Shown here: piece by piece, positions 7,297 to 20,982 of the stretch
Layout of the letters: each line of letters begins with the position of its first letter
How positions within the stretch are numbered: position 1 is the stretch's first letter
Source of the DNA: Thermomicrobium sp. 4228-Ro
Lineage (GTDB): Bacteria > Chloroflexota > Chloroflexia > Thermomicrobiales > Thermomicrobiaceae
DNA: 64,000 bases
Assembly: GCF_026241205.1 (NCBI RefSeq)
Contig: NZ_JAPFQM010000006.1
Span: forward strand, 248,001-312,000
Reading direction: 5' to 3'
Program-made: the position numbers and the translations under genes
Notes under the pieces: model-generated
Database searches by the model: none
What the model was told of the DNA's origin: nothing
Seen by the model: the letters and a program-made list of their open reading frames with translations, nothing else

Positions 7297-10200
7297 ATGG
7301 CTGTGACGGTGTCGCGCCGCACATTCCTGAAATTCGGTGGCGCGGCAGCGGGAACCGCAGTGGGTGCCTTAGCTGGCCTGGGCGTGGATCTGCGTCCCAA
7401 GCAGGTGCGGGCACAGCAGCTGCGGATCGCGAACGCGCAGGTGTTCCCGAGCGTGTGCCCCTACTGTGCAGTGGGCTGTGGAACCCTCGTGCACGTGGTC
7501 AACGGGCAGATCGTCAATATCGAGGGGAACCCGAAGAGCCCGATCAACAAGGGGAACCTGTGCCCGAAGGGAGCAGCGCAGTTCCAGCTGCACGTGAATC
7601 CCAACCGGCTGACCAAGGTCCTCTACCGGAAGCCTTATGGCACCCAGTGGGAAGTCGTCGACCTCGACTGGGCGATGGACCGTGTCGCGGAACTGGTGAA
7701 GAAGACGCGCGACGAGACGTTCGTCGAGACGCTACCGAACGGCAAGCGGGTGATGCACACGACGGCGATCTTCTCGCTGGGTGGCGCGACGATCGATAAC
7801 GAGTGGAACCACATCCACCAGAAACTGATGCGTGGCCTGGGGATCGTCCGGATCGAGAACCAGGCACGGATATGACACAGCTCGACCGTCCCCGGTCTGG
7901 GGACTCGGCTCGGGCGCGGTGGTTCGACCACCTTCCCCGGTGACCTCGTCAACGCGGACCTGATCATCATCATGGGTTCCAACATGGCCGAGAACCACCC
8001 GGTGGCATTCCGCTGGGTGGCGGAGGCGAAGCGACGCGGTGCGAAGCTGATCCACGTCGACCCGCGCTTCACGCGCACCTCGGCGATGGCGGATCTCTAC
8101 GTGCCGCTCCGCTCCGGGACGGATATCGCCTTCCTCGGCGGACTCATCCACTACATGATCGAGAACGAGAAGTATTTCAAGGACTACGTCGTCAACTACA
8201 CGAACGCGGCGACGATCATCCGCGACGATTTCCAGGACACCGAGGATCTCGAGGGGGTCTTCTCGGGTCTGAAGGAAGCTCCCGAAGGGACGTTCCAGAA
8301 GTACGTCTACGACAATGCGACGTGGCAATACAAGCGCACGCAGCCGTGGGATGCGGCCAAGGCGCGTGAGGAGGCGAAGAAGGCAGCGACCTTCGCGGAG
8401 ATGATCCAGAAGATGGTGCCGCCACCGGCCGAGAAGGATCCCACCCTGCAACACCCACGGACGGTGTTCCAGATCGTCCGGCGTCACTTCTCGCGCTACA
8501 CGCCGGAGATGGTCGAGCAGATCTGTGGGACGCCGAAAGAGCTGTTCCTCAAGGTGGCCGAGATGCTGGCCGAGAATTCCGGCCCGGAGCGCACGACGAC
8601 GTTCGTCTACGCGATGGGCTGGACGCAGCACACCTACGGCGTCCAGAACATCGGTTGCGCGGCGCTCCTGCAGCTCCTGATGGGGAACATGGGCCGACCA
8701 GGCGGTGGCATCCTGGCCTTGCGCGGGCACGCCACGATCCAAGGCTCGACCGATATTCCGACGCTCTACCATTCGATCCAAGGGTACATGGCGCACCCGG
8801 ACGCACGGCGCAATCACGATACGTTGCGCGACTACATCCTCACCGAGACGCGGCCGACCGGGTACTGGGCGAACCTGCCCAAGTTCATGGTGAGCTACCT
8901 CAAGTCGATGTACGGCGCTGCCGCCAAGCCGGAGAACGACTTCGGCTACGACTGGCACCCGAAGATCAACGGCGACTACTCGTTCATGGCCAGCTTCCAC
9001 GCCATGGCGCGGGGCGAGATCAAGGGTGCGTTCTTCTTCGGTCAGAATCCCGCCACCTCGATCAACGCGGGGCTCATCCGCCGCGCCCTCGCGAATCTGG
9101 ACTGGCTGGTCGTCAAGGACAACTTCGAGACCGAGACGGCCGCCTTCTGGTACAAGTCGCCGGAAGTCCAGAGCGGCGAGATGAAGCCGGAGGAGATCAA
9201 GACCGAGGTCTTCCTGTTCCCCTCCGCACAGGTGGCGGAAATCGAGGGGACGTATACCAATACGCAGCGACTCATCCAGTTCCACGAGAAGGCAGCCGAC
9301 CCGCCCGGCGACTGCCGTTCGGATGCGTGGTTCACGCACCAGCTCGCACTGCGCTTGAAGAAGCTCTATGCCGACTCGACCCTGCCGCGCGACGAAGGGT
9401 TCAAGAACCTGACCTGGGACTACGACTACGAGCCAGGCAAGTACCCGACGAACACGCGCATCCAGGGTGAGCCGGACGTCATGAAGATCTGGCGCGAGGT
9501 CAACGGGTTCAAGACCGACACGGGCGAACTCCTCAAGGGGTTCGGCGACCTCAAGGACGACGGTTCGACGACTTGCGCGTCGTGGATCTATTGCGGCGCC
9601 TATCCGGAGGAGGGGAAGTTCCTGCCGGCGAGCCGCAACCCGGATCCGGACGACAAGCCGGGTACCCACCTCGGTTGGGGCTACGCCTGGCCAGCCAACC
9701 GGCGCATCCTCTACAACCGGGCTTCGGCCGACCCCAATGGCAATCCCTGGTCGGAGCGGAAGAAGTACATCTGGTGGGACGCTGGACAGAAGAAGTGGGT
9801 CGGTAACGACGTACCGGACTTCCCGGCGACGAAAGCGCCGGACACGCCGGCCAAGCCGGGTGCGACTGGCCTCGATGCCCACGACGGCAAGAGCCCGTTC
9901 ATCATGATGGCCGACGGCAAGGGCTGGCTCTTCGTGCCGACCGGGTTGCAGGACGGACCGCTGCCGACGCACTACGAGCCGATTGAGTCGCCGGTTCCGA
10001 ACTTGCTGTATCCGAAGCAGCAGAACAACCCGATCGCCAAGTACTACGAGCACGAGCGGAACCAGCTGGCTGCAGTCAGCGACCCGCAGTTCCCGATCGT
10101 GCTGACGACCTACCGCCTGACGGAACACCACCTCTCCGGCGCGATGAGCCGCTGGCTGCCGTGGCTGGCGGAGCTCCAGCCGGAGCTGTTCGTCGAGATC

Positions 10201-10482
10201 AGCCCGGAGCTGGCGCAGGAGAAGGGGATCAAGAACCTCGACTTGGTGCGCATCACCTCGAAGCGCGGCACGATCGTTGCCAAGGCCCTGGTGACGCCGC
10301 GGCTGCGGCCGCTCACGGTGAACGGCAAGACGATCCACCAGATCGGTATGCCGTGGCACTGGGGCTTCATGGGGATCGTGGTCGGCGACGTGGTCAACGA
10401 TCTCGGTGCCTGGGTGGCCGATCCGAACGTGCAGATCCACGAGATGAAGGCGCTCACGGTCAACGTCGAGAAGGCGAAGTAG
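7297..10482 (+). CDS. fdhA: Formate dehydrogenase catalytic subunit, selenocysteine-containing (UGA at 7873-7875)
   Basis: One continuous gene of 1061 residues if UGA codon 193 is read as selenocysteine; the parts before and after it are in the same frame. Residues 1-40 are a Tat signal (SRRTFLK). Cys54, Cys57, Cys61 and Cys89 form the [4Fe-4S] site. The UGA lies in the FdnG-type context IENQARI-Sec-HSSTVPGLG, where Sec ligates Mo or W. Then follow typical formate dehydrogenase segments (MGSNMAENHPVAFRW, FFFGQNPATS) and a C-terminal molybdopterin domain (TSKRGTIVAKA). The length equals that of E. coli FdnG/FdoG. It oxidises formate outside the membrane, passing electrons to the Fe-S and NrfD-like subunits encoded next. 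The organism must also have selA, selB, selC and selD; none is in this window. Confidence 0.95.
7873..7904 (+). promoter_or_regulatory. Selenocysteine UGA codon and bacterial SECIS hairpin
   Basis: The UGA is at 7873-7875. Starting 12 bases later, GTCCCC (7888-7893) and GGGGAC (7899-7904) form a perfect six-base-pair stem around the loop GGTCT (7894-7898). The E. coli fdhF SECIS element has the same GGUCU loop, also 18 bases after its UGA; the loop and its spacing are what SelB recognises. Both the loop and the spacing are therefore conserved here although the stem sequence is different. Confidence 0.88.
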
Positions 10483-10553: not shown

Positions 10554-11378
10554 ATGGCCGAACCGATGGGCTTCTTCACCGACACGTCCGTCTGCATCGG
10601 CTGTAAAGCCTGCGAGGTGGCCTGCAAGGAGTGGAACCAGCTACCAGCTCGGAACGGCGGCAAGATCCAGCTGAGCGGGCAGTCGTACGACAACACGGTC
10701 TCGCTGAGCGGCATCCAGTGGCGGCACGTCAAGTTCGTCGAGCAGTTCAGCCCCGACCGGTCGACCGGCCGCTGGCTGATGATGAGCGACGTGTGCAAGC
10801 ACTGTGTGCAGGCAGCGTGCCTCGAGGTCTGCCCAACCGGTGCCATCATCCGGACGGAGTTCGACACCGTCGTGATCCAGCAGGACGTCTGCAACGGGTG
10901 CCGGGCCTGCATCGCGGCCTGCCCGTTCGGCGTCATCGAGATCAATCCCGAGACGAACACCGCGATGAAGTGCACCCTCTGCTACGACCGGCTGCAGGCC
11001 GGCATGGTACCGGCGTGTGCGCAGGCCTGCCCGACACAGTCGATCCAGTTCGGGCCGATCTCGGAACTCAAGCAGCGTGCCCAGGAACGCTTGCAGCAGC
11101 TGCACGAACAAGGCGTCACACAAGCTCGTCTCTACGGGCACGACGAGTCGATCTTGGGCGGCTTGAACGCGTTCTATCTTTTGCTCGACAAGCCGGAAGT
11201 CTACGGCTTGCCCTCCAATCCGCAGCTCCCTTCACGGAACGTCGCTCCCTCGGCTGCCTTGTCGGCAGCAGGCGCAGTCGCGCTCGGTCTTCTCGGGCTC
11301 GTCGGTCTGCGCAAGCAGCGGATGGATCGGCTCGCAGCGGAGGCACGTGGCGAAGGGGAGGGCAGCCATGCCGGATAG
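10554..11378 (+). CDS. fdhB: Formate dehydrogenase iron-sulfur subunit
   Basis: A 274-aa protein with four ferredoxin-type cysteine clusters: CIGCKACEVAC (Cys14-24), CKHCVQAACLEVCP, CNGCRACIAACP and CTLCYDRLQ...CAQACP. This is the four-[4Fe-4S] arrangement of FdnH/FdoH, which wires the catalytic subunit to the quinone-reactive membrane subunit. Near the C-terminus there is one hydrophobic segment (AALSAAGAVALGLLGLVGL), followed by basic residues, as in FdnH, anchoring the protein in the membrane. The stop codon overlaps the start of the next gene by 11 bases, indicating translational coupling. Confidence 0.93.
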   Translation: MAEPMGFFTDTSVCIGCKACEVACKEWNQLPARNGGKIQLSGQSYDNTVSLSGIQWRHVKFVEQFSPDRSTGRWLMMSDVCKHCVQAACLEVCPTGAIIRTEFDTVVIQQDVCNGCRACIAACPFGVIEINPETNTAMKCTLCYDRLQAGMVPACAQACPTQSIQFGPISELKQRAQERLQQLHEQGVTQARLYGHDESILGGLNAFYLLLDKPEVYGLPSNPQLPSRNVAPSAALSAAGAVALGLLGLVGLRKQRMDRLAAEARGEGEGSHAG

Positions 11379-12252
11379 CTTTTTCACGCACTCGCCGGAA
11401 TGGCGGTGGTGGATCGTCTTCTACTTCTTCATCGGCGGCATCTCCGGCGGCGCATTCGCACTCGCTGCGCTCTTGCGCCTTTTCGGGCAACCGGGTGACC
11501 GTCCGGTTTCACGTCTCGGGTACTACATCGCGTTTCCCGGTAGCCTGATCAGTGGTCTCTTGCTGATCCTCGACCTGAAGCGGCCGGAGCGCTTCTGGCA
11601 CATGTTGATCCAATCGGAGACCTTCCGACCGGCGTTCAAGTGGTGGTCGCCGATCTCTGTCGGATCGTGGGGACTGCTCGCCTTCGGCTTCTTCTCTTTC
11701 CTCGCGTTCGTGGGTGCGCTCGCTGAAGTCGGTATCCTGCCACGTGGGCTCTCAGCATTTGTCACCGGGACGCTCGGGGCCATCGTCAATGTCCTCGGTG
11801 GTCTCTCCGGGTTCTTCTTAGCCGGCTATACTGGGGTGCTCCTGTCGACGACCAATCGGCCACTCTGGAGCGATACGGTTTGGCTCGGGTTGCTCTTCCT
11901 CGTCTCCGGCTTCTCGACTGGTGCAGCGCTCTTGATCCTGCTGAGCTGGCGGAGCGATTCGCCGGCGGTCCGGTGGCTGAAAGAACTCGATTCCTGGACA
12001 CTCATCCTGGAACTCGTCGTCCTGATCGTCCTACTGGCATCGGTCGGCACGGCGGTGCTCCGGCCGGTTCTGTTCAACGCCTGGGGCGTTCTCTTGCTCG
12101 TCGGTGTCGTCCTGGTCGGTATTCTGGTCCCGTTGCTTCTTCACTTCCGGCCGCTGCTCGGGCGGTTGACGGTGCCGAGTGCGGCCGTGCTGGTCCTGGT
12201 CGGAGGGTTCATTCTCCGTGTCGTGATGTTGCTCTCGTCGGAGGCTGTGTGA
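11368..12252 (+). CDS. NrfD-like membrane subunit of formate dehydrogenase
   Basis: A 294-aa integral membrane protein with about eight hydrophobic segments, opening with WWIVFYFFIGGISGGAFALAA, which matches the NrfD/PsrC start (family: ....yFflgGlagGaf.la). NrfD-type subunits lack haem and exchange electrons with menaquinone. Here one replaces the cytochrome b subunit (FdnI) of the E. coli enzyme. The ATG at 11368 was chosen over a GTG at 11347 because of the ribosome site AGGGGAGGG just before it. Both starts overlap the Fe-S subunit gene. Confidence 0.85.
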   Translation: MPDSFFTHSPEWRWWIVFYFFIGGISGGAFALAALLRLFGQPGDRPVSRLGYYIAFPGSLISGLLLILDLKRPERFWHMLIQSETFRPAFKWWSPISVGSWGLLAFGFFSFLAFVGALAEVGILPRGLSAFVTGTLGAIVNVLGGLSGFFLAGYTGVLLSTTNRPLWSDTVWLGLLFLVSGFSTGAALLILLSWRSDSPAVRWLKELDSWTLILELVVLIVLLASVGTAVLRPVLFNAWGVLLLVGVVLVGILVPLLLHFRPLLGRLTVPSAAVLVLVGGFILRVVMLLSSEAV

Positions 12253-12253
12253 G

Positions 12254-12493
12254 GTGGGGCGAGCAAGACGAGTGGTCAGCTGGGCACTCCGGATCCTGGC
12301 AATCACGGTGCTCTCGGGTGCACTCATCGCCTGTGGGCCGGAGGCATCGCGCACACGCGGCGGCGGTCCGGGTGCGGATATCGGTAATCGCGGGAGCGAA
12401 ATCCAGCTCCATCCCTTCGGCCCAAAGGTGATCTACTCGAATACTCCGAAGGAGGGCGAGGCCAGCCAGGTCGCTGGGATGCCGGTCGAATGA
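12254..12493 (+). CDS. Small lipoprotein of the formate dehydrogenase operon
   Basis: A 79-aa protein with a GTG start one base after the previous stop. It has a basic N-terminus, a hydrophobic segment and lipobox GALIAC with lipidation at Cys27. The mature part is only about 52 residues, Gly-rich at first, then charged, with no recognised domain. Its stop overlaps the fdhE start in ATGA. Tight coupling to both neighbours suggests that it belongs to the dehydrogenase complex or its assembly outside the membrane. That is inference; I do not recognise the family. Confidence 0.7.
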   Translation: MGRARRVVSWALRILAITVLSGALIACGPEASRTRGGGPGADIGNRGSEIQLHPFGPKVIYSNTPKEGEASQVAGMPVE

Positions 12494-13359
12494 GTACGAT
12501 CGTCGACAAGTTCGAGCAGTTGGCGGAGCAGGACGCTGTCCTGGCTCCGCTGGCCCGTCTGTATGCGCTGGCATTACGGTTCGCCGCTGCGCCGGGAAGC
12601 CAGCTGTTGGCGAGCGTTCTCGACGCGCAGCCGGTCACGGATGGTGTGACGCCGGCTCTGCACGGGCGGACGCTCGTCGTCGACGTCGGACAGGCGACGC
12701 AGCTCGTCACCGAGGCAGCCGAGCTCCTCACCCGCAGCGGGATCGCAGCCGGTGATGACCTCGCTCTGGCCGTACGATCCGGTCGGTTGGTTGTGCTGGA
12801 CCTGGTTCGGGTAGGGATCGTTACCACTCCGGAACGTCTCGAGGAGCTTGGACAGCGAGCTGGCGTTTCTCCGGGGGTCGTCGCCACGCTAGCGCAGACT
12901 GTGGCGATACCGTTTCTGGTCACGGCCGCCCGTGCGATCGGCGGGCAACCCGCCAGCACGTGGCACGCCGGCTACTGTCCCCTTTGCGCGGCCTGGCCCG
13001 TAGTCGCCGAGTTCCGCGGGCTGGAACGTGACCGCTGGTTGCGGTGCGCGCGGTGCGGAGCCGGCTGGCGCTTCCCGCACCAGCACTGTCCGTTCTGTGG
13101 GAACAGTGACCACCGGAGCCTGCGCTATCTGGCAGAAGAAGGGAAACAGGACGCTCAGCGTGTCGAGGTCTGCGAGGTCTGTCACGGGTACGTGAAGACA
13201 TTCGCGACCCTGGGCGCCTGGAGCCACGGCGAGGTGCTCTTGCAGGACCTGACGACGATCGAACTCGACCTCGTCGCGGTGGAGCGCGGCTACCAGCGGC
13301 CAGGGAGCCTCGGGTTTCCCTTGGCCGTCACGGTCGTCGCACGGGAGCTCGTCGCCTGA
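12490..13359 (+). CDS. fdhE: Formate dehydrogenase accessory protein FdhE
   Basis: A 289-aa protein of FdhE length. The C-terminal half has four CxxC pairs (Cys163/166, 186/189, 200/203, 228/231) in the FdhE order, with the hallmark segments CPLCAAWPVV, CARCGAGWRFPHQHCPFCGN and CEVCHGYVKTF; these build rubredoxin-like iron sites. The N-terminal half is helical (ASVLDAQPVTDGVTPALHG). FdhE is needed for formate dehydrogenase maturation before or during Tat export, consistent with the Tat signal on the catalytic subunit and with the ATGA overlap with the preceding gene. Confidence 0.92.
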   Translation: MSTIVDKFEQLAEQDAVLAPLARLYALALRFAAAPGSQLLASVLDAQPVTDGVTPALHGRTLVVDVGQATQLVTEAAELLTRSGIAAGDDLALAVRSGRLVVLDLVRVGIVTTPERLEELGQRAGVSPGVVATLAQTVAIPFLVTAARAIGGQPASTWHAGYCPLCAAWPVVAEFRGLERDRWLRCARCGAGWRFPHQHCPFCGNSDHRSLRYLAEEGKQDAQRVEVCEVCHGYVKTFATLGAWSHGEVLLQDLTTIELDLVAVERGYQRPGSLGFPLAVTVVARELVA

Positions 13360-18033: not shown

Positions 18034-18519
18034 TCAGCCGTTGCGTACGGTCTGCATCCTGGCAGCCGCCGCCTCGACGGCCGCCAGGATGCGGAGGTAC
18101 GAGCCGCAGCGGCAGAGGTTGCCAGCGAGATACTGCGCGATTTCCTGCCGGGTCGGGTTCGGACGTTCTCGCAAGAGCGCGATCGTGCTCAGAATCATAG
18201 CCGGCGTGCAGTAGCTGCACTGGAAAGCTTGGTGTTCGACGAAAGCCTCCTGGACCGGGTGCAGGGAACCATCGGGCCCCGCAATACCTTCGAGCGTCGT
18301 GACGTACGCACCGTCGGCCAACACGGTCAGGGCGAGGCAGCTCGAGATCGGGCGACCCTCGATCAAGACGGTGCACGCGCCGCAGATCCCGATGCCGCAC
18401 GTCTCACGCACGCTCGTGAGGCCGAGCCGCTCGCGCAAGGTCTCCAGGAGCGTCTCGTCACAGGGTACGGCGAACTCGTGGTCCTGATTATTGACACGCA
18501 GGCGGACCGTCTGTTGCAT
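18034..18519 (-). CDS. Molybdenum hydroxylase small subunit (two [2Fe-2S])
   Basis: A 161-aa protein of the xanthine dehydrogenase/CO dehydrogenase small-subunit family. A plant-ferredoxin-like [2Fe-2S] site is formed by Cys41, Cys46, Cys49 and Cys61 (ETCGIGICGACTVL...SC). A second helical [2Fe-2S] site has QCSYCTPAM and GNLCRCGSY. It carries electrons from the Mo site to the FAD subunit. The start ATG shares one base with the stop of the large-subunit gene (TGATG). It is the last gene of its unit, and the FAD subunit is encoded about 5.5 kb upstream at 24032-24925. Confidence 0.93.
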   Translation of the reverse strand: MQQTVRLRVNNQDHEFAVPCDETLLETLRERLGLTSVRETCGIGICGACTVLIEGRPISSCLALTVLADGAYVTTLEGIAGPDGSLHPVQEAFVEHQAFQCSYCTPAMILSTIALLRERPNPTRQEIAQYLAGNLCRCGSYLRILAAVEAAAARMQTVRNG

Positions 18520-20810
18520 CACCGCCCCTCCTCACGGGCCTCCCGCAGGGCACGCAGCACACGTTCCGGTGTAAGCGGGAGTTCGGTCAAGCGAGCACCA
18601 GTGGCACGGGCGACCGCGTTCCCGATCGCTGCTGGGACGGGCGGCAAGGCAGTCTCACCGACACCATGCACCTCAGCTCCCGGGCACTCGAGCAGGTCAT
18701 GGGACAGCTGGTCGGGCAGATCGAGGAAAGCGGGCACGAGATAGTCCGACAGGTTGGTCGTGAGCGGCTGTCCGTGCTCGTAGACGAGTTCCTCGAAGAG
18801 CGCGCTGCCCAGTCCCATGATCATGCTGCCTTCGTTCTGCAGCGCTGCAGTGAGCGCGTTGACGACCTCGCCCGCGTAGACAGCGGCATGGAGCCGCACG
18901 ACCTTGACCTGTCCGGTCTCCAGGTCGACCTCGACTTCCGCTCCGGCAGCTCCCTGGTGCCAGTGCGACGAGGCGATCCCGTGGCCCGTCTCGTCCAGAC
19001 CACCCTCGTTGTGGAACTCCGCATGCTCGCGGAGTTCCTCCAGGCCGAGGCCAGCCACGAGCTCGCCCCAGCCGATACAACGCTCGGGCGCACCGCGCAC
19101 GCAGACCGCACCCGGCACGAGCTCGAGATCCTCCGCCGCGGCCTCGAGCCGCTCGGCTGCGAGCGCACGCAAGCGATCGGCGAGCTGCCATGCCGCTCGC
19201 CGCACGGCGTTCCCCATCATGTAGGTCGAGCGGCTCGAGGTGGTGCGGTTGTCGAAGGGCGTCCGGTCGGTATCGGGATCGACCAGCTGAACGGACGTGT
19301 ACGGTACGCCGAGCGGCTCAGCAGCCAGTTGGGCGAGTACGGTGCGCGCTCCCTGGCCAAGCTCGACGGTCGAGGAGTAGACCGTCACGCGCCCGTCCCG
19401 ATCGACCGCGACAGCTGCTTCCGACCGGCTGGGCGTGGTCATGCCTTTGATCACGACGGCGAGGCCTTTCGCGCGCACGCGACCACCAGGCAACACGGTC
19501 CGCTCGGGGCTCCACGCGATCGCTCGAGCTGCCGCCTCCAGACACTCGCGGAAATGGACGTCGTGGAGTGTCTCGCCGGTGGCGAACTGGTCACCGTCGG
19601 CGAGGAGGTTGCGCAGACGGAACTCCAGCGGATCGAGGCCGAGCGCATCGGCCGCGATGTCCATCATCCGCTCGGAGGCCCAGACGATCTCGGTGACTGC
19701 ATAGCCGCGGAAGGCGCCGGCCGGCGGCAGGTTCGTATAGACGCAGTACGAGTCGACCGCGACATGTGGAATCCGGTAGGGTCCGACGCTGCCGAACCCG
19801 CCCTTGCGGGCGACGTCCGGCCCGCAGTCGGCATAGGCACCGGTACTCCAGTAGGCTTCCACCCGCTTGGCCGTGATGCGCCCATCGCGAGTCAGCCCGA
19901 GCCGGATCGTGACCACCGTCGCGTGCCGGGTAAGGGTGAGGAACTCCTCGTAGCGGTCGAGCACGAGCTTGACCGGTCGACCGGTCAAGTAGGAGAGCAC
20001 GGCGACCTGCGGCTCGATGCGCGGGAAGACCTTGCAGCCGAAGGAGCCGCCCATCGGCGGCACGACGATCCGGACTCGCTCCGCTGGTAGGCCGAAGATC
20101 TGGGCGAGTATCTGGCGCGTGTTGAACGGCGTCTGTGTCCCGCTGATCACGACCAGGCGCCCGTCGTCCCAGTACGCGAGCGCGGCATGCGGCTCCATCG
20201 CCACGTGCTGGGCGGCTGGCACGCGGAACGTCTCCTCGAGCACGAGATCGGCCTCGGCGAAGCCCTGCTCGATATCCCCGGTGTAGAGCCGGAAATGATT
20301 GCAGCAGTTGGTGCCGAAGAGCGGCCGCAGACCGAAGTAGACCGCATGCCCACGGAGCGGCTCGTCGGGCCGCAGCTCGTGGACGAGCGGTGCACCCGGC
20401 CGCATCGCCTCGACCGGATCGAAGACCGCTGGCAAGGGCTCGTAGTCGACGACCACCTGGCCGGCGGCCTCCCGTGCGGCCCGCGGCGTCTCGGCAGCGA
20501 CGAGCGCCACCATATCGCCGACGTAGCGCACCCGGTCGGCGGCCAGAATCGGCTGGTCTTCGATCTGCGGCCCATAAACGGGACGGATCCCGGGGATCCG
20601 GGCGAGATCGGCCGCGGTCACGACCGCAACGACGCCGGGAACGGCGCGCGCTGCGCTCGTCTCGATACGCCGGATGCGCGCATGCGGCTGGGTGCTGCGC
20701 ACGACCGCAGCGTGGAGCATCCCGGGCACCGCGACGTCCTGGCTGAAGCGGATGCGGCCAGTGACGCGCTCCAGCGCATCGATCATCGGAACCGCCCTAC
20801 CGACCGTCAT
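18519..20810 (-). CDS. Molybdenum hydroxylase large subunit (xanthine dehydrogenase family)
   Basis: A 763-aa molybdopterin-binding subunit. It starts with the a/b hammerhead domain (DALERVTGRIRFSQDVAVPGML) and has GGSFGCKVFPRIEPQVAVL, the loop PPAGAFRGYAVTE at the active site and, near the C-terminus, the segment GVGETALPPVPAAIGNAV carrying the catalytic Glu. The GAFRG loop is the xanthine dehydrogenase type; it is neither the AYxCSFR of form I CO dehydrogenase nor the AYRGAGR of form II. The enzyme should hydroxylate a C-H next to N or a carbonyl in a ring or aldehyde. The substrate is unknown. The ATG at 20810 gives the usual family length. Confidence 0.9.
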   Translation of the reverse strand: MTVGRAVPMIDALERVTGRIRFSQDVAVPGMLHAAVVRSTQPHARIRRIETSAARAVPGVVAVVTAADLARIPGIRPVYGPQIEDQPILAADRVRYVGDMVALVAAETPRAAREAAGQVVVDYEPLPAVFDPVEAMRPGAPLVHELRPDEPLRGHAVYFGLRPLFGTNCCNHFRLYTGDIEQGFAEADLVLEETFRVPAAQHVAMEPHAALAYWDDGRLVVISGTQTPFNTRQILAQIFGLPAERVRIVVPPMGGSFGCKVFPRIEPQVAVLSYLTGRPVKLVLDRYEEFLTLTRHATVVTIRLGLTRDGRITAKRVEAYWSTGAYADCGPDVARKGGFGSVGPYRIPHVAVDSYCVYTNLPPAGAFRGYAVTEIVWASERMMDIAADALGLDPLEFRLRNLLADGDQFATGETLHDVHFRECLEAAARAIAWSPERTVLPGGRVRAKGLAVVIKGMTTPSRSEAAVAVDRDGRVTVYSSTVELGQGARTVLAQLAAEPLGVPYTSVQLVDPDTDRTPFDNRTTSSRSTYMMGNAVRRAAWQLADRLRALAAERLEAAAEDLELVPGAVCVRGAPERCIGWGELVAGLGLEELREHAEFHNEGGLDETGHGIASSHWHQGAAGAEVEVDLETGQVKVVRLHAAVYAGEVVNALTAALQNEGSMIMGLGSALFEELVYEHGQPLTTNLSDYLVPAFLDLPDQLSHDLLECPGAEVHGVGETALPPVPAAIGNAVARATGARLTELPLTPERVLRALREAREEGR

Positions 20811-20982
20811 CGCGACTGCTCCCCGCTCGACCGGCTCGTGTACTCCGGTACCAGCGACCGTCCGCTGGACATCGAGGACCGTCCTCGAAGTGCCGGAGCT
20901 GGCTCGCCCACCAGCACAGTGGAGAAGGCAGTATCGGGACAACGGTGCTCCACTCGGACAGCAGTCGTCTCATACCGCCCCG

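Follow-up and report, generated by a model that had tools for sequence, protein, structure and literature searches.

A predicted selenocysteine-containing FdnG-type formate dehydrogenase with a conserved SECIS hairpin in Thermomicrobium

Introduction

In Escherichia coli, recognition of a hairpin by SelB with bound Sec-tRNA(Sec) is the established mechanism by which selenocysteine (Sec) is inserted at UGA. Thermomicrobium is known as an aerobic, CO-oxidising thermophile. The commonest bacterial selenoproteins are FdhA and SelD (PMC1794560). Chloroflexi are listed among the Sec users (PMC5322559), and the AhpC of Sphaerobacter thermophilus appears in a figure on Sec-AhpC (PMC5330540).

Here we analyse a formate dehydrogenase locus with an in-frame UGA in a 64,000-nucleotide stretch of Thermomicrobium DNA (the window), which lies on contig 6 of a genome from the order Thermomicrobiales that comprises 13 contigs and 3.07 Mb. 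The features of the locus are collected in Table 1.

Results

The frame of the alpha subunit gene contains a single stop, the TGA of codon 193, and is otherwise uninterrupted in translation, with coding sequence conserved both 5' and 3' of that codon. Its product matches TIGR01553 (FDH-N alpha subunit) with 1083.6 bits, above the curated cut-off of 814.2, and NF041513 (formate_DH_Act) with 1420.1 bits (cut-off 1400), and is homologous over its whole length to PDB 1kqf (E=5.6e-242). The N-terminus carries a Tat-type (twin-arginine) signal, SRRTFLKFGG. The first-pass annotation had placed the UGA at the position where FdnG-type enzymes have the Sec or Cys ligand, and the alignment bears this out: residue 193 shares a column with X, which marks the active site in E. 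coli FDH-N 1kqf ('NQARVXHGPTV'). The gene is also broken in two by standard gene calling, as had been expected; ORF callers yield pieces of 192 aa (7297-7875) and 836 aa (7972-10482).

Table 1. Features of the formate dehydrogenase locus, in window coordinates.
Feature	Position	Strand	Product or size	Basis
fdnG-type selenocysteine formate dehydrogenase alpha subunit (predicted)	7297..10482	+	1061 aa with Sec193	translation, TIGR01553, NF041513, PDB 1kqf
AUA isoleucine codon directly 5' of UGA	7870..7872	+		codon-usage bias in homologues
In-frame UGA, predicted to be recoded as selenocysteine	7873..7875	+	codon 193	translation; homologue comparison
Spacer from UGA to apical stem	7876..7887	+	12 nt	equal length in aligned homologues
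SECIS apical stem, 5' arm	7888..7893	+	GUCCCC	folding, covariation
SECIS loop	7894..7898	+	GGUCU	codons 199-201 most constrained of the gene
SECIS apical stem, 3' arm	7899..7904	+	GGGGAC	folding, covariation
FdnH-like iron-sulfur beta subunit, C-terminal hydrophobic helix	10554..11378	+		Fer4 domains; TIGR01582 191 bits, under the cut-off of 334.7
NrfD-type membrane quinone-reducing subunit (predicted)	11347..12252	+		PF03916, 99.8 bits
FdhE-like formate dehydrogenase accessory protein	12490..13359	+		PF24860; TIGR01562 53 bits, under the cut-off

The hairpin downstream of the UGA had been described as a GTCCCC/GGGGAC stem beginning after 12 bases with its loop at 18 bases, and both coordinates and spacing proved exact. 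The likeness to E. coli fdhF that was claimed for loop and spacing also holds, the fdhF gene sequence reading TGA-18 nt-GGTCT. Of the 1336 TGAs on both strands of the 64-kb window, only that of codon 193 is followed at this offset by a perfect hairpin of 6 bp with a loop of 5 nt. The 46 nt from 7873 to 7918 fold into exactly the GTCCCC-GGTCT-GGGGAC hairpin at -22.4 kcal/mol, with a z-score of -1.89, and a 64-nt fold of the region gives a z-score of only -0.64. Folding energy by itself is thus modest evidence, and we rejected it as sole support for a SECIS element; the comparative data decide. The hairpin lies directly after the UGA and combines a short loop bearing G/GU with a covarying stem, as bacterial SECIS elements do.

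Mapping with tblastn shows that codon 193 is TGA in 108 of 109 homologues and TAG in one, with no Cys codon, and that the TGA is common to homologues across many phyla. Synonymous constraint was scored over 465 columns in 85 dereplicated homologues. The homologues are kin by descent, so that the counts are not independent events; the gene's remaining synonymous sites provide an internal control. The least synonymous freedom is found at codons 200, 199 and 201 (ranks 1, 2 and 3 of 465), which make up the loop and its flanks. Gly200 is encoded by GGT in 67 of 72 sequences despite the predominance of GGC across the gene. In the stem, the wobble base of codon 198 lies opposite that of codon 202, and the two make a standard pair in 82 of 84 sequences, by way of CG, GC, UA, AU, GU and UG; none of 20000 shuffles reached 82, the best giving 59. 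Among 30 sequences from outside Thermomicrobiales, 95.6% of the cells are paired, against 31-57% when the partners are slid by 1-3 columns.

A covariance model was trained on those 30 sequences and run on the genome. The two best hits were the site in the window, at 58.8 bits (E 5.3e-11), and a second fdnG, at 52.4 bits (E 2e-9); all else was noise at 19 bits or less. Modelling of the region as a bacterial SECIS element, as the first-pass annotation had suggested, succeeded with this model and fell short with Rfam SECIS_3 (RF01989), whose alignment spans 7870-7928, keeps the TGA in register and scores 21.4 bits. As this is far below the gathering score of 63, we do not assign the site to the SECIS_3 family.

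In a homologue from a Modestobacter MAG (Geodermatophilaceae), TAG replaces TGA and the hairpin is unchanged. This fits the UAG-Sec code with a CUA tRNA that is known from Geodermatophilaceae (PMC5330540).

Of the 81 homologues with Ile immediately 5' of the UGA, 61 encode it by ATA, compared with 4.4% ATA among the Ile codons of the same genes, and this column ranks 1 of 465 by divergence from background codon usage. AUA could aid recoding, for example through slow decoding or through the A that precedes the UGA, and the bias may also be due to shared descent.

A full Sec system had been predicted to exist in this lineage, and selA, selB, selC and selD are all present in the genome, including the selB and tRNA-Sec genes, whose absence would have counted against the Sec reading of the formate dehydrogenase. 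The tRNA-Sec (selC) with a UCA anticodon lies at C1:65290-65382 (73 bits, gathering score 47), SelB at C1:478106-479965 (359.4 bits, cut-off 242), SelA at C1:575750-577099 (548 bits, cut-off 268) and SelD at C1:1677655-1678590 (357 bits, cut-off 125). In a table compiled by hand for 61 Thermomicrobiales genomes, 31 have both the TGA-containing fdh and SelB above cut-off, 4 the fdh without SelB, 14 SelB without the TGA-containing fdh, and 12 neither (Fisher p 0.003). The four genomes with the fdh and no above-cut-off selB match are all incomplete drafts of 70-82% completeness.

Candidate selenoproteins were sought family by family, and the six genes found (the fdnG of the window and five others) are a lower bound. 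The second FdnG-type gene (C1:1200994-1203996) has an in-frame TGA and a variant hairpin, GTGCCC-GGTCT-GGGCGC, and adjoins its own Fe-S and NrfD-like genes, which were recognised by visual inspection of the translation. SelD, too, is a candidate; its gene has a TGA in frame within the motif SCAG-U-AGK and, about 26 nt downstream, a hairpin GGCGCA-GGUGC-UGCGCC that is kept across Thermomicrobiales. In three thioredoxin-fold genes the catalytic position is occupied by an in-frame TGA, and their products are likewise candidate selenoproteins: an AhpC-like protein (C1:1191305-1191688; FTGG-U-ANQ) and a peroxiredoxin-like protein (C6:816852-817325; U-PYC; TGA in 22 of 25 homologues), both with a hairpin after the TGA, and a thioredoxin-NHL (Trx-NHL) protein with the motif C-U-I-N-C (C1:789201-790181). 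The single genome copy of a CMD/AhpD-type protein (PF02627), sought as a further Sec protein, has no TGA.

In Thermomicrobiales, 28 of 30 Trx-NHL orthologues have the TGA, and in most of these a hairpin whose loop is AGUU or similar follows some 26 nt further on. In the two orthologues with TGC, the AGTTG loop sequence is missing and folding is weak (-6.3 and -9.0 kcal/mol). The literature searched, whose coverage is incomplete, yielded no paper on a Trx-NHL selenoprotein, and a search for NHLRC2 gave one unrelated paper. The C-U-I-N-C proteins are possibly an undescribed selenoprotein family.

No FdnI cytochrome b membrane subunit was found beside the alpha subunit gene; the neighbouring membrane protein is of the NrfD type (PF03916). 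Because this subunit differs from E. coli FdnI, the predicted enzyme is FDH-N-like and not an FdnGHI complex. Elsewhere in the window, near the formate dehydrogenase operon, ORFs on the minus strand (18034-20942) resemble, by eye, a molybdenum hydroxylase of the aerobic CO dehydrogenase type, namely its small [2Fe-2S] subunit and its large subunit.

Discussion

We propose that the gene encodes a respiratory FdnG-type formate dehydrogenase with Sec at residue 193, the UGA being decoded through SelB and the hairpin, and put the probability of this reading at roughly 97%. We regard it as almost certain that the UGA encodes selenocysteine, as it does in E. coli, since the genome has the Sec machinery complete, along with at least five more candidate genes of this sort. 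SelB with Sec-tRNA(Sec) would bind the GGUCU-loop hairpin that begins 12 nt after the UGA, Sec would be delivered, and translation would run on to the end of the frame. We infer the metal and the electron path of the enzyme from sequence comparison. Sec193 would be the Mo/W ligand of the catalytic subunit of a Tat-exported respiratory enzyme, electrons from formate would pass through the 4Fe-4S beta subunit to the NrfD-type quinone reductase, and FdhE would help in maturation. Given the Tat signal and the FdnH-like, NrfD-type and FdhE-like neighbours, the enzyme probably acts at the outer face of the membrane and passes these electrons to the quinone pool.

The two pieces returned by gene callers would also be expected of a pseudogene, in which the TGA is a nonsense mutation or a sequencing error. 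With the TGA recurring in 108 homologous records, a sequencing error is in practice excluded, and the sharing of this codon by homologues from many phyla, in a frame without other stops, next to a conserved hairpin and in a genome with the full Sec machinery, leaves the pseudogene with a vanishingly small probability; the comparative data already refute it. Very improbable, too, is that an ordinary tRNA reads the UGA (Trp suppression) or that two separate polypeptides are made, with the hairpin a mere protein-coding constraint. The stem does encode a conserved peptide, VPGLG, and an ATG is available downstream at 7972, but the strongest constraint falls on synonymous positions that covary across the stem, and a start at 7972 would lose the active-site residue and also some 32 residues that follow it and are aligned with 1kqf. 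A different question is whether Sec is inserted into an enzyme whose role is other than quinone-linked formate oxidation, such as CO2 reduction or formate removal. Such a role is suggested by a membrane subunit that is NrfD-like instead of FdnI and by the second Sec-fdnG copy elsewhere in the genome, but the Tat signal, the 4Fe-4S and NrfD subunits and the match to the TIGR01553 FDH-N equivalog fit respiratory formate oxidation, and we consider the other role unlikely.

The proposed reading corrects the annotation where standard callers split the gene, and the analysis shows that Thermomicrobium retains a full Sec system for at least six candidate genes. As FdhA is a common selenoprotein (PMC1794560) and Chloroflexi are Sec users (PMC5322559), we regard the gene as an ordinary new case of a well-known phenomenon. 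The first-pass annotation had called Sec use rarely discussed in this lineage. The trait itself has been reported (PMC5322559; PMC5330540, for Sphaerobacter thermophilus). The literature searched, with incomplete coverage, gave nothing direct on a Sec formate dehydrogenase of Thermomicrobium. Two points on bacterial recoding signals can be tested, namely the Sec/Cys contrast in the Trx-NHL proteins, where the hairpin is lost with Cys, and the AUA bias. We advance only tentatively, at somewhat less than even odds, the joint proposal of a broad, conserved Thermomicrobiales selenoproteome (at least six genes here), of previously undescribed C-U-I-N-C Trx-NHL selenoproteins and of AUA as part of the Sec-fdnG recoding signal.

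Compared with E. coli FdnG (FDH-N, 1kqf), the predicted enzyme shares full-length homology, the Tat signal, the Sec column and an FdnH-like beta subunit. It differs in its NrfD-type membrane subunit, where E. coli has the cytochrome b FdnI, and in the length of the alpha subunit, 1061 aa against the 1015-residue chain of 1kqf. The recoding site resembles that of E. coli fdhF in its GGUCU loop at a distance of 18 nt from the UGA and in the CAC that follows the UGA. In contrast to fdhF, the stem is GUCCCC/GGGGAC and the codon preceding the UGA is AUA instead of GUC; moreover, the fdhF protein is FDH-H, whereas the enzyme described here is of the FDH-N type. Family, UGA and hairpin alike are shared with the Sec-FdnG proteins of the NF041513 (formate_DH_Act) group from Actinomycetota, Gemmatimonadota and Ktedonobacteria, in which the wobble pair of the stem, C-G in Thermomicrobium, is often G-C or U-A.
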